Source of the DNA: an uncultured Bacteroidota bacterium
GTDB lineage: Bacteria; Bacteroidota; Bacteroidia; Bacteroidales; GCA-2748055
Assembly (NCBI GenBank): GCA_937129385.1
Contig: CAKZNC010000172.1
Coordinates: 1-41,130 of the forward strand
Direction: 5' to 3'
DNA length: 41,130 bases
Part shown: piece after piece, positions 372-6,180 of the stretch
Layout of the letters: each line of letters begins with the position of its first letter
Numbering within the stretch: position 1 is the first letter of the stretch
Program-made: the position numbers and the translations under genes
Notes under the pieces: generated by a model
What the model was told of the DNA's origin: nothing
Databases searched by the model: none
What the model saw: only the letters and a program-made list of their open reading frames with translations

Positions 372-1352
372 GTGAGGAAGTTGATCATAGCCATATCTTT
401 AATCCTGATTTTCAGAGGTATATCTGGTCAGGACCCCCACTTCACGCAATTTTATGCGAATCCGCTGTACCTGGCCCCGAGTTTTGCCGGCGCGATCCAG
501 TCGGACCGTATCGCTGCCGTATACCGCAACCAGTGGGCCTCGCTTCCAGGCGCCTATGTCACCTACAGTTTCTCCTACGACCATTTTTTCGAGAATTTCA
601 ATAGTGGCCTGGGAGTTTTGCTGATGCGTGATGTGGCGGGGACGGGAGACCTGGCCATGACGAATGCCGGTCTGCAATATTCCTACGACATCAAGATCAA
701 CAATTACTGGCATGTTCGACCGGGGATCCACGTCAACTACACGCAGATGGGGATCGACTATTTCAAGCTTACCTGGAACGACCAGCTGTCGACGGGCGGA
801 ACATCCGGCGGGACGATTGAGCAGCCGGGTGAGGAGGTGAAGGCTGATATCGACTTTTCCACCTCCGCTTTGGTGTATTCCGACCGGCTCTGGTTTGGGT
901 TCGGGGTGGATCATTTGCTGACGCCCAACTACGGGTTATGGAACAATGATGCCGACTGGCCGGTGAAGTACACCGTCTTCGGCGGTGCCCAGGTGATCAA
1001 GCGCGGTCATCTATTCAACCCCATCGACGAATCCCTGTCACTGGCCTTCCTGTTCAGGCACCAGGACATCTTCAATCAGCTCGACCTCGGTGTCTACTGG
1101 TACAAGGCACCGCTGATGCTGGGCCTGTGGTATCGTGGTGTGCCGATCATCAGCAAGGATCCGCGCGGTGATGCAGTCGCCTTCCTGGTCGGCTACAAGA
1201 TGGACGACATCCGCGTCGGCTACTCCTACGACTTCACCATCTCCAACCTGGTGAGCTCCACCGGCGGCTCCCACGAGATCTCCGTGGTATACGAGTTCAA
1301 CACCTCACGGGCGAGGAAAAAGCGGAGGATGGTGCCGTGTCCGGAGTTCTGA
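372..1352 (+). CDS. PorP/SprF family T9SS-associated outer-membrane protein
   Basis: This 326-residue protein belongs to the PorP/SprF family, beta-barrel proteins linked to type IX secretion and gliding in Bacteroidota. It starts at a GTG that gives a signal peptide (residues 1-19). The mature protein opens with QDPHFTQFYANPLYLAPSFAG-type sequence (core QFYANPLYL), the family hallmark. The remainder is rich in alternating aromatic/polar strands (YSYDI, WFGFGVDHLL, VGYSYDFTISNL), as expected of a barrel. Length is normal for the family. Orphan copies not next to porK-N, as here, often accompany secreted cargo or adhesins; that is family knowledge. The partner cargo is not identified, although two proteins with T9SS tails are encoded at 6307-8073 and 9333-11558. 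Confidence 0.92.
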   Translation: MRKLIIAISLILIFRGISGQDPHFTQFYANPLYLAPSFAGAIQSDRIAAVYRNQWASLPGAYVTYSFSYDHFFENFNSGLGVLLMRDVAGTGDLAMTNAGLQYSYDIKINNYWHVRPGIHVNYTQMGIDYFKLTWNDQLSTGGTSGGTIEQPGEEVKADIDFSTSALVYSDRLWFGFGVDHLLTPNYGLWNNDADWPVKYTVFGGAQVIKRGHLFNPIDESLSLAFLFRHQDIFNQLDLGVYWYKAPLMLGLWYRGVPIISKDPRGDAVAFLVGYKMDDIRVGYSYDFTISNLVSSTGGSHEISVVYEFNTSRARKKRRMVPCPEF

Positions 1353-1359
1353 TGAAAGA

Positions 1360-1386
1360 GGAGAGAGGAGAGAGGAGAGTTAAGAG
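1360..1386. repeat. Left arm of 27-bp perfect inverted repeat
   Basis: The arm consists of three 7-base units (GGAGAGA, GGAGAGA, GGAGAGT) followed by TAAGAG. It is the exact reverse complement of 1853-1879, and pairing breaks on both sides of the 27 bases. The stop codon of the minus-strand gene (1380-1382) lies inside it. Confidence 0.95.
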
Positions 1387-1769
1387 AGCCTGGGATTGGA
1401 TTGGGTTGCTTTTCTTAGGCCTGACAACATAGCACAGATTTCTTCAATCTTTTTCCTGAGTAGTTTATAGTTTTCTTCAGAGATATATTCCAATTCAAAC
1501 GAAATAATTAACTGATTCAATAGTTCTACGGCGCTACTGTATGATACATTGATAAAGCGCAATCTGTCCTTTTTCGTATATCTAACCGTTCCTTCCGCAA
1601 TATTTGATGCTACTGAGATTGCACTTCTACGCATCTGGGAAATAAGATTAAATACTTCATTCTGTGGAAATTCTTCCAGGGCAGTGATTTCGTATATTTT
1701 TTTCGCAAGCAATCTTGATCTTTGCCATACCTTCAGCCTTTCGAATGTAAATATACCTGCTGCTTCCAT
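1380..1769 (-). CDS. Four helix bundle protein (S23 / 23S rRNA intervening-sequence protein family)
   Basis: This 129-residue protein has the hallmarks of the four-helix-bundle/IVP family: an N-terminal F-x-x-LKVWQRSR segment, QMRRSAISVASNIAEG around residues 45-60, and a leucine-rich C-terminal helix pair (SAVELLNQLIISFELEYI). It is full length for the family. Related bundles include the S23 proteins of rRNA intervening sequences and the Avd proteins of diversity-generating retroelements, which bind nucleic acid; the function of free-standing copies is unknown. No reverse transcriptase or variable repeat is present here. The gene lies entirely inside an inverted-repeat pair and is read against both neighbours, so it is not part of their operons. 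Confidence 0.88.
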   Translation of the reverse strand: MEAAGIFTFERLKVWQRSRLLAKKIYEITALEEFPQNEVFNLISQMRRSAISVASNIAEGTVRYTKKDRLRFINVSYSSAVELLNQLIISFELEYISEENYKLLRKKIEEICAMLSGLRKATQSNPRLS

Positions 1770-1852
1770 ATGTTTTTATTATTAATGTAACAACAGCATT
1801 AATTCTCGTGTTATGCTCCATTTTTTTTCATCACTTTCAACTTTTTCATCTA

Positions 1853-1879
1853 CTCTTAACTCTCCTCTCTCCTCTCTCC
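1853..1879. repeat. Right arm of 27-bp perfect inverted repeat
   Basis: Exact reverse complement of 1360-1386. It ends 10 bases before the TATCTTTG promoter box of the next gene. About 83 bases of AT-rich leader separate it from the start codon of the enclosed minus-strand gene. Confidence 0.95.
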
Positions 1880-1889
1880 ACTTTTTTTC

Positions 1890-1942: not shown

Positions 1943-2557
1943 ATGAAGAATATCAATTATGTGATCAATGCCATTCTTGGAGCGGCGGTGATCGTTCTTT
2001 TCGTACTTTATTTTAGCGGCGATTCCAGTGAGATGCCGTCTGAGAAGAAACAGGTATCCGATTCAGCCAGGATGGCTTCGGGACCGTCGAACATTGCCTA
2101 TTTCAAGATCGACAGTGTGTTGGCTAACTGGGAGCTGTACTTCGATCTGCAGGAGAAGCTTGGTTCAAAGCAGCAGCAGCTGGAATCTGATTTTGAGAGC
2201 AAATCGCAGAGTTTCATGAAGCGCGTGGAGGATGCACAGTACAAGATCCAGCGTGGTCTGGTTACCCGTGCCGAAGCGGAGCAACTGCAGCAGCAGCTTG
2301 CACAGGAGGAGCAGAACCTGATGGGACTGCAGAACAACTACGCAGCGCAGCTCCAGGAGGAAGGCGTGGTGAAGAACCGCCAGATGCTGGATAAGATCGA
2401 GCAGTACCTGAAGGAGTACAACGAAGACCAGGGATATGATTACATCTTCAGCTACACCTTCGGAGGGAACCTCTTTTATGCCGATGATGCACATGACATC
2501 ACCCAGGAGGTGATTGACGGCATCAACGAAACCTTTCCTGCAGAGACAGCGGAGTAG
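1943..2557 (+). CDS. OmpH/Skp family periplasmic chaperone-like protein
   Basis: This 204-residue OmpH/Skp-like protein probably helps hold unfolded outer-membrane proteins in the periplasm. Residues 5-25 (VINAILGAAVIVLFVLYF) form a signal anchor or uncleaved signal. The sequence NIAYFKIDSVLANWELYFDL (about 50-70) is the typical start of the domain. It is followed by a long glutamine/glutamate-rich coiled coil (about 75-135), then the conserved C-terminal part (YDYIFSYTFGGNLFYADDAHDIT). Bacteroidota often encode several OmpH paralogues, and an anchored N-terminus is common in them. The next gene starts 3 bases after its stop, so the two are probably co-transcribed. Confidence 0.9.
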   Translation: MKNINYVINAILGAAVIVLFVLYFSGDSSEMPSEKKQVSDSARMASGPSNIAYFKIDSVLANWELYFDLQEKLGSKQQQLESDFESKSQSFMKRVEDAQYKIQRGLVTRAEAEQLQQQLAQEEQNLMGLQNNYAAQLQEEGVVKNRQMLDKIEQYLKEYNEDQGYDYIFSYTFGGNLFYADDAHDITQEVIDGINETFPAETAE

Positions 2558-5497: not shown

Positions 5498-5615
5498 GGA
5501 CTCGCTGGCGCGGGGGGGTTAACCGCAGAGTGTCGCGGGGGTTTAACCGCAGAGTAACGCGGAGTATACGCAGAGTTAAAGTAATATTTGCAGTGCGTAA
5601 TTACCGCAGAGTTAT
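5498..5615. repeat. Degenerate CGCAGAG repeat block upstream of the GxxExxY gene
   Basis: Units of CGC(A/G)GAGTnn recur at about 10-11 or 24 bases. TTAACCGCAGAGT occurs exactly at 5519-5531 and 5543-5555, with looser copies near 5559, 5569 and 5603. The block begins with GGACTCGCTGGCGCGGG, which resembles the start of the repeat at 40969. An apparent open frame through here is low-complexity translation of the repeat and not a gene. Confidence 0.85.
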
Positions 5616-6156
5616 TTTAAAAAATTCCTTCTATTCGTCAGATAAATCCAGTTTCCATAACATTAACAGGTAGAAATCAATACCTGGTATTATGGAATTA
5701 AATGAACTTAGCCGTATAGCACTGCAATGCGCATTCAAAGTCCATGCAGACCTCGGTCCGGGATTGTTGGAATCTGCATACGAAGCATGCACCTATTATG
5801 AACTCTGCGAAGCAGGATTAACTGTAGAGAAGCAGAAGGTACTTCCAGTAACATATCATAATGTAAAACTCGATGCAGGTTACAGGGTTGACCTCTTGGT
5901 AGAAGACTCACTTATTCTTGAGATCAAAGCAGTAAAAGCACTTGATGAAGTACATTTCTCACAATTGTTGACCTACCTGAAACTTGCAGATTGTAAACTG
6001 GGTCTGCTCCTGAACTTCAATGTTAAATCTTTGAAACAGGGAATTCGCCGTGTGGTCAATGTTTATTAACCAATGAAGTGGAAATTCGCCTCGCTCCTAC
6101 TCTGCGTTCCACTGTGCTACTCAGCGGTTAAAATTATCTGTGCCCTCTGCGGTTAA
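5519..6156. mobile_element. Inverted-repeat cassette carrying a GxxExxY gene
   Basis: The 12-base core TTAACCGCAGAG at 5519-5530 recurs in inverted orientation at 6145-6156 (CTCTGCGGTTAA), enclosing one intact gene at 5692-6069. Further weaker CGCAGAG/CTCTGCG copies lie on each inner side in the matching orientation. The plan parallels the four-helix-bundle cassette at 1360-1879, with different repeats and a different protein. Mobility is inferred, and exact ends cannot be fixed because the repeats are degenerate. Confidence 0.45.
5692..6069 (+). CDS. GxxExxY protein (PD-(D/E)XK nuclease-like)
   Basis: This 125-residue protein carries the family motif G24-LL-E27-SA-Y30. Residues D67 (YRVDLLV) and E77-I-K79 (LILEIKA) fit the D...ExK core of the PD-(D/E)XK nuclease superfamily, to which GxxExxY proteins (PDDEXK_3) are assigned. 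HFSQLLTYLKLADCKLGLLLNFN is the conserved C-terminal half. It is full length and intact. Its biological role is not established. It stands alone between pruA and the repeat-rich end of the block, and is more AT-rich than pruA, consistent with a separate origin. Confidence 0.9.
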   Translation: MELNELSRIALQCAFKVHADLGPGLLESAYEACTYYELCEAGLTVEKQKVLPVTYHNVKLDAGYRVDLLVEDSLILEIKAVKALDEVHFSQLLTYLKLADCKLGLLLNFNVKSLKQGIRRVVNVY

Positions 6157-6169
6157 TACTCTCCTCGCT
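6088..6169. repeat. Inverted-orientation repeat block downstream of the GxxExxY gene
   Basis: ACTCTGCGTTCC (about 6099-6110), CTCAGCGGTTAA (about 6120-6131) and CTCTGCGGTTAA (6145-6156) are reverse-complement versions of the CGCAGAG units at 5498-5615. Short GCCTCGCTCC and CTCCTCGC tracts mark the two edges. Confidence 0.75.
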
Positions 6170-6180
6170 ACAAGGCAAAT

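Follow-up and report, generated by a model that had tools for sequence, protein, structure and literature searches.

An S23/four-helix-bundle gene between inverted heptamer arrays: a candidate mobile unit outside rRNA

The question raised by this locus is why an intact gene of the S23 family should be enclosed by two matching inverted repeats at a site between protein genes. The window, i.e., the whole stretch of 41,130 nucleotides analysed here, belongs to the genome of an uncultured Bacteroidales bacterium (G000; 4.28 Mb in 236 contigs, 99.7% complete) with four PF05635 genes. One of these, located at positions 1380–1769 of the minus strand, encodes a protein of 129 aa predicted to form a four-helix bundle (FHB) and assigned to both PF05635 (E = 1.6e-34; 118.8 bits against a cut-off of 33.8) and TIGR02436 (108.5 bits against a cut-off of 24). 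In agreement with a preliminary description of the locus, its reading frame is intact and its stop codon lies inside the left repeat, hereafter the left arm. The exact 27-bp inverted arms claimed there, at 1360–1386 and 1853–1879, were likewise recovered, and their pairing extends to 32 nt with a single mismatch: the left arm (1355–1386, plus strand) is an array of the heptamer AGAGGAG that ends in GAGTTAAGAG, the right arm (1853–1884, minus strand) is its reverse complement at 31 of 32 positions, and 466 nt lie between them. The immediate context, outside the unit, consists of porP/sprF upstream (372–1352, plus strand) and an ompH-like gene downstream (1943–2557, plus strand), and no rRNA or other RNA family was found in the window by Rfam at gathering scores, which upholds the claimed position among protein genes. 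When 351 kb of the genome and the 41-kb window were scanned for inverted pairs (score of at least 36, span up to 1.5 kb; a palindromic 1.8-kb contig was omitted), the window pair was the only one. The omitted contig (L130, i.e., G000:C52; 1,817 bases) is nearly one long palindrome and is perhaps an assembly artefact.

Such a unit might be a relic of a 23S rRNA intervening sequence (IVS), or a hairpin retained solely for the processing of RNA, for example by RNase III, with no specific recognition by a protein. The protein family is the same and the size similar; moreover, the 28-bp terminal stem of the Coxiella 23S rRNA IVS is cut by RNase III (Warrier 2016, PMC4990558), and the minus-strand RNA of 1345–1894 is predicted to fold with the arms paired as a long terminal stem around the gene (MFE −142.1 kcal/mol, z = −4.37; none of 100 shuffles was equally good). 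However, rRNA was absent both from the window and from 11 other scanned loci, chosen mostly for their homologous neighbours, and an rRNA context was rejected on these grounds, while a recognition-free stem gives no reason to expect private words that follow the protein (see below). This origin is regarded as very improbable.

The structural model of the protein (pLDDT 92.3) consists of four long helices, and its best Foldseek match was 2gsc (Xcc0516; TM 0.85 by query), followed by 2rld (BT_0352 of Bacteroides thetaiotaomicron) and then by DGR Avd (TM 0.74 by query, E 0.19). Both 2gsc and 2rld contain five chains per entry, which fits a pentamer; S23 and Avd proteins form pentameric barrels. 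The residues Q45, S52, N56, E59 and E82 are 97–100% conserved among 191 sequences and constitute a conserved polar site with a putative function in binding or catalysis. Neither a transposase nor a reverse transcriptase is encoded within the unit 1355–1884, and the host genome has no PF00078 (RVT_1) match at E ≤ 1e-5, so DGR-like or reverse transcriptase-driven copying is unlikely here.

The observation was right and is far more general than first noted, the FHB family itself being abundant (at E ≤ 1e-16, at least 118 of the order's 169 genomes carry a PF05635 gene). For each FHB match, the 300 bp on its left were aligned to the 300 bp on its right in reverse-complement form; the thresholds were set by the authors and kept unchanged from the first set onward, and most of the genomes are drafts. 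The first set comprised 101 matches, 83 of which were counted after removal of 6 without locus sequence and 12 with a flank shorter than 300 bp. The second set was taken from genomes outside the first, best by E-value, with some contig-end genes skipped (one of them, L221, had sequence), and gave 86 counted genes. Inverted arms with a score of at least 36 were found in 43 of 83 and 46 of 86 genes, respectively, or 89 of the 169 FHB genes of the order; at a score of at least 30 the number rose to 112, leaving 57 below. In a further set of 80 loci from named genomes of many phyla, archaea included (73 counted, 7 with short flanks excluded), the two thresholds were reached by 33 and 49 loci, compared to 0.86% and 2.5% of 5,256 cross pairs. 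The loci scoring at least 36 include those of Calothrix, ANME-1, another Methanophagales archaeon, two Cerasicoccus, Planctomycetota, Omnitrophota, Helicobacteraceae, Clostridia, Nitrosomonadales and many Bacteroidota.

Since the arms are simple repeats, in which draft contigs often end (C50, C140 and the window among them), chance or an assembly artefact of low-complexity sequence was a candidate explanation, and it was rejected on the flank and placement controls. At the threshold of 36, the left flank of one gene matched the right flank of another in only 1.0% of 1,660 and 1.2% of 7,310 pairs. The same-genome cross pairs gave 0 of 244 in the first set and 3 of 98 in the second, so low complexity alone is insufficient. 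Flanks displaced outward by 300 bp scored in 3 of 161 cases and by 600 bp in 0 of 157, a position shift of 900 bp gave 0 of 334, and random placements in genome samples gave 6 of 2,244 (each of them within the palindromic contig) and 2 of 2,560. Together with the genome scan, in which the window pair stood alone, and with the same layout in finished cyanobacterial plasmids (scores of 46–60 in 6 and 16–22 in 4 of 10 records, taken from 30 matching ones and including several near-duplicates), these controls make chance or artefact scarcely credible. Direct-orientation matches at the same threshold (13/83, 18/86 and 7/73 in the first, second and named sets) are attributed collectively to arrays of complex structure or to gene copies in tandem.

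Two of the plasmid contexts deserve mention on their own. On plasmid pANA02 of Anabaena sp. 90 (L403, 316–3339), an array-flanked FHB gene has cas6 on one side and cas4 on the other, within a type I-D CRISPR-Cas operon. Plasmids 1 and 2 of Calothrix brevissima NIES-22 (L396 and L397) have one FHB cassette in common, arms included, situated inside a longer shared block and adjoining a gene of the phage integrase family.

The arms are tandem arrays of short units, mostly heptamers, mirrored around the gene. The window arms are not a fixed 27-bp repeat, as initially supposed, but one instance of a short-unit array whose word varies from locus to locus. Among the 118 arm-bearing genes of the 169 (score of at least 29), the identity by lag was 0.543 at 7 and 0.517 at 14, against about 0.25 at 3–5 and 0.40 at 8, and the best period of the 114 left arms that measure 20 nt or more was 7 in 73 and 8 in 26 cases. 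The median arm measures 34.5 nt, and the median outer span of the 89 genes scoring at least 36 is 530 bp. Read inward, the arms are richer in G (0.267) than in C (0.103), with G exceeding C in 104 of 118 genes. The inward heptamer consensus is wAGtnnw with the G at 0.83, as obtained by rotating into register 126 of 178 arm pairs, namely those in which both arms had a best period of 7; the register information amounted to 1.89 bits, compared to a maximum of 1.67 in 20 column-shuffled nulls.

A second, unrelated protein family occurs in a similar setting. A GxxExxY gene (PF13366) at 5692–6069 lies within 5509–6170 of the window between inverted TTTAACCGCAGAGT-type arms with a score of 32. Among its relatives (42 matches, 30 analysed, of which 2 had short flanks and 28 were counted), the score reached at least 36 in 10 of 28, against 0.8% of 756 cross pairs, with direct-orientation matches in 9 of 28. 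Inverted arms are thus not unique to FHB genes, since this family shows the same layout. The GxxExxY arms have a weak period near 9–10, not 7, and the heptamer arms look particular to FHB genes.

Within one genome, each FHB gene has its private word. The other three FHB genes of the host genome, named here after their contigs, were also found between inverted simple repeats, as the preliminary description would have it: C77 with the word AAAGGGC (score 61), C157 with TTCAGCC/GTCAGCC (score 37) and C43 with a GGAGCATG-like word, whose pair is short (17 nt) and weak (score 29); the window pair, with a fourth word, scores 59. Not a single one of 85 pairs of arm-bearing FHB genes from the same genome (arm score of at least 28) shared a word.

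Three of the four host words (window, C77 and C157) are dispersed over the genome and nearly absent from the relatives searched. The window word has 34 matches in the host genome at up to 1 mismatch, its own two arms counted, and none in 60 relatives, while the C77 word has 35 overlapping matches on 13 contigs and 1 match in the 60 relatives. The C157 word has 162 overlapping matches and none in 20 relatives; read backwards as a control, it still gave 120 matches in the host genome and 0 or 1 in the others. The control is high in the host because a separate array family, GACTGCC/GGCAGTC, is the mirror of this word. No FHB gene with the GACTGCC/GGCAGTC word was found in the host genome, and genome G053 has one with such arms. 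For the C43 word, the genome sample yielded nothing as an array beyond one partial match. In a 400-kb sample of another genome (G050), its own words were refound in 5 of 5 cases versus 5 of 46 for foreign words, and in the sample of the host genome in 1 of 4 versus 1 of 47. As a side observation, the contig of the window itself starts within an array of CTGACGACTGACGG units (13–66) from the array family of the C157 arms, and the assembly seems to break at arrays of this kind.

The 34 matches of the window word were reduced to 25 places (5 loci with overlapping or partner matches and 4 matches without locus sequence account for the difference). An inverted partner within 700 bp was present at three of them, i.e., the FHB cassette and sites on contigs C15 and C215, and absent at 22. 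At the latter two sites (L122, 1990–2309, and L123, 1952–2366), the inverted pairs lie 250–330 bp apart without an FHB gene, and are possibly gene-less forms by analogy with REPINs. They enclose other small repeats.

The arms and the gene are present or absent jointly at two sites. The porP–ompH junction was traced through 16 relatives with an ompH-like gene, six of which (G003, G006, G011, G007, G005 and G010) have a porP-like gene just upstream, called by eye from its conserved C-terminus. All six readable junctions, with a gap of roughly 100–350 bp, lack the whole unit, arms as well as gene; in the other ten, the place before the ompH-like gene is taken by a different gene or by the end of the contig. 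With these empty junctions and the arms of the other three FHB genes, neither of the two outcomes that would have spoken against the preliminary description was observed. The gap in G003 (L166), about 346 bp, is occupied by degenerate repeat-like filler of AGATCGCAGG... units with no FHB gene. The second site is that of the C157 cassette, which sits in a 630-bp gap downstream of a gene. The site is empty in 15 of 18 relatives, in which the stop of the upstream gene is at most 35 bp from the match start of the next gene, the distance being 118 bp in G018 and the upstream end not read for G023 and G015. Since both arms and gene are missing at the two sites, they were gained or lost together there, at empty sites too diverged for the exact insertion boundary or a target-site duplication to be read.

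These joint absences bear on the possibility that the inverted arrays existed first and received the FHB gene in their loop, whereby the arms would belong to the target. In favour of this, inverted same-word pairs without an FHB gene exist on C215 and C15. Yet the relatives without the gene are also without the arms at both sites, the words are abundant but never shared by two same-genome FHB genes (the above 0 of 85), and the words follow the protein across host families, as described next. Insertion into ready-made arrays is accordingly rated as improbable.

The similarity of the protein partly predicts the word of its arms. The comparison included the 118 genes with an arm score of at least 29 out of 169, only pairs from different host families were considered, and arms were called similar at a score of at least 28. 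The share of pairs with similar arms was 0.2–1.3% below a protein similarity of 0.4 and 3.9% at 0.4–0.5, and increased to 15% at 0.5–0.6 (n = 131; about 85% of these pairs are still without similar arms) and to 45% at 0.6–0.7 (n = 11). It was 0–1.5% when one arm was reversed, which keeps the composition, and at most 4.6% against the reverse-complement arm of the partner; in the first set, the reverse-complement similarity likewise climbed with the protein similarity. The Mantel correlation (real minus reversed) was 0.199 and was reached by none of 1,000 permutations, with 0.158 for the second set alone (0/1,000) and 0.159 for the first (0/2,000); the permutation treats genes as exchangeable, so that phylogeny is only partly controlled.

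The coupling is therefore statistical and partial, and it is mostly not the inheritance of one locus. Of the 44 coupled pairs, drawn from 49 genes, 8 have homologous neighbours in the available flanks and the remaining 36 do not, which rules out single-locus inheritance as the whole cause. For example, TTAATxTGCTAAT-type arms are common to four FHB genes from four host families, with the copy in G045 in the opposite orientation. At the level of single residues, the association of protein columns with heptamer positions was not significant (top APC 0.077 against a permutation maximum of 0.091), and the protein motif KRRYP was not significantly associated with a CAG word (Fisher p = 0.15). With the insertion differences and the coupling across host families, the idea of a small mobile family in which arms and protein belong together gained support.

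The reading preferred here, and held to be moderately probable, is that of a mobile arm–gene–arm unit whose S23 protein reads its own word, both the binding and the movement being inferred. Positions 1355–1884 would then be a minimal mobile element composed of a short-unit array, an S23/FHB gene and the inverted array. The predicted four-helix-bundle protein would recognise its own word, repeated in tandem, in the hairpin that its own element forms as RNA or as single-stranded DNA, presumably by physical binding. If one heptamer were taken up by each subunit of the ring, about 35 nt would be covered, as compared to the median arm of 34.5 nt. Recognition may drive or license the propagation of the element as well as of solo arrays without a gene, in the way proposed for RAYT proteins and REPs; a driving role of the protein itself in the movement is the less certain part of this reading.

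The main rival is that S23 is a TRAP-like RNA-binding regulator, in which case the arrays at its own gene would be autoregulatory and the dispersed arrays would represent a host regulon, with slippage and selection, and not the protein, causing the arrays to spread. The coupling of protein and word would be equally expected of such a regulator, and the copies of the window word between tandem genes are oriented in the sense of the genes in 5 of 5 cases. What makes it unlikely is that gene and arms are missing together in relatives at two sites, that the words are nearly absent from congeners, unlike a conserved regulon, and that a regulator does not by itself explain two inverted arms.

The mobile-unit reading would join two unexplained things, namely an abundant S23 family so far without a function and the heptameric intergenic arrays. 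If it is true, S23 proteins gain a function and an origin is suggested for the arrays, as well as a reason why words of one genome are missing from its relatives; the rRNA IVS would likewise gain relatives outside rRNA. The layout thus points to an overlooked kind of mobile element made of a repeat plus a protein. A broader version can be offered only tentatively, as possible rather than probable: the heptameric intergenic repeats, long a puzzle, might have their sequence-specific partners in the S23/FHB proteins of bacteria and archaea. A new class of selfish element would result, in which a ring protein without a transposase fold reads a private 7-letter word in tandem and propagates arm–gene–arm units and solo arrays, with the 23S rRNA IVS as one specialised descendant.

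Among known systems, TRAP offers only an analogy, that of a ring on tandem short repeats: its ring binds tandem short NAG-type repeats, and its fold is unrelated to that of S23. The unit differs from a MITE or an insertion sequence in having no constant terminal repeat among its copies, since the FHB words differ and none of the 85 same-genome pairs was alike. With the 23S rRNA IVS it shares the protein family, a similar length and the S23 ORF between pairing ends; unlike the IVS, it lies outside rRNA and its arms are genome-dispersed short-unit arrays. PF05635 resembles Avd (PMC10053308), and the fold is related. In contrast to DGR Avd, however, the window protein scores below the cut-offs of bAvd (29.3 versus 40 bits) and DivGenRetAVD (36 versus 80 bits), and the host genome has no RVT_1 partner match.

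Intergenic heptamer arrays as such have been described before. TAACTGA occurs as intergenic heptamer repeats, with no mention of S23 in the available part of that paper (MacGregor 2015, PMC4679880), and Xanthomonas campestris has 186 GGGAATC arrays with 70 inverted pairs, generally unassociated with mobile elements (Rehm 2015, PMC4692102). These resemble the present arrays, the Xanthomonas ones also in forming inverted pairs, but neither paper connects its arrays with S23 genes in the available text, and that of PMC4692102 mentions neither S23 nor xcc0516. The portion of the open-access literature covered contained no report tying S23 genes to heptamer or inverted arrays, which is no proof of absence.

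The closest parallel to the proposed unit may be REP/RAYT, in which RAYT genes always lie between two inverted REPs and the RAYT and REP trees share their topology, according to Nunvar 2010 (PMC2817692). In both systems, a protein gene is located between inverted copies of a genome-dispersed repeat and the protein and the repeat co-vary; in the host genome, two inverted copies flank each FHB gene and the repeat is dispersed for three of the four words. The differences are in the parts: S23 lacks the Y1/HUH (Transposase_17) fold, giving only S23/Avd-type families in Pfam and NCBIfam and a helix bundle in the model, and its arms are tandem short-unit arrays, whereas a REP is a palindrome with a GTRG head. 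Overall, the preliminary view of an IVS-like cassette stands as far as the compact arm–gene–arm organization is concerned, but the resemblance to REP/RAYT is at least as strong as that to the rRNA IVS.
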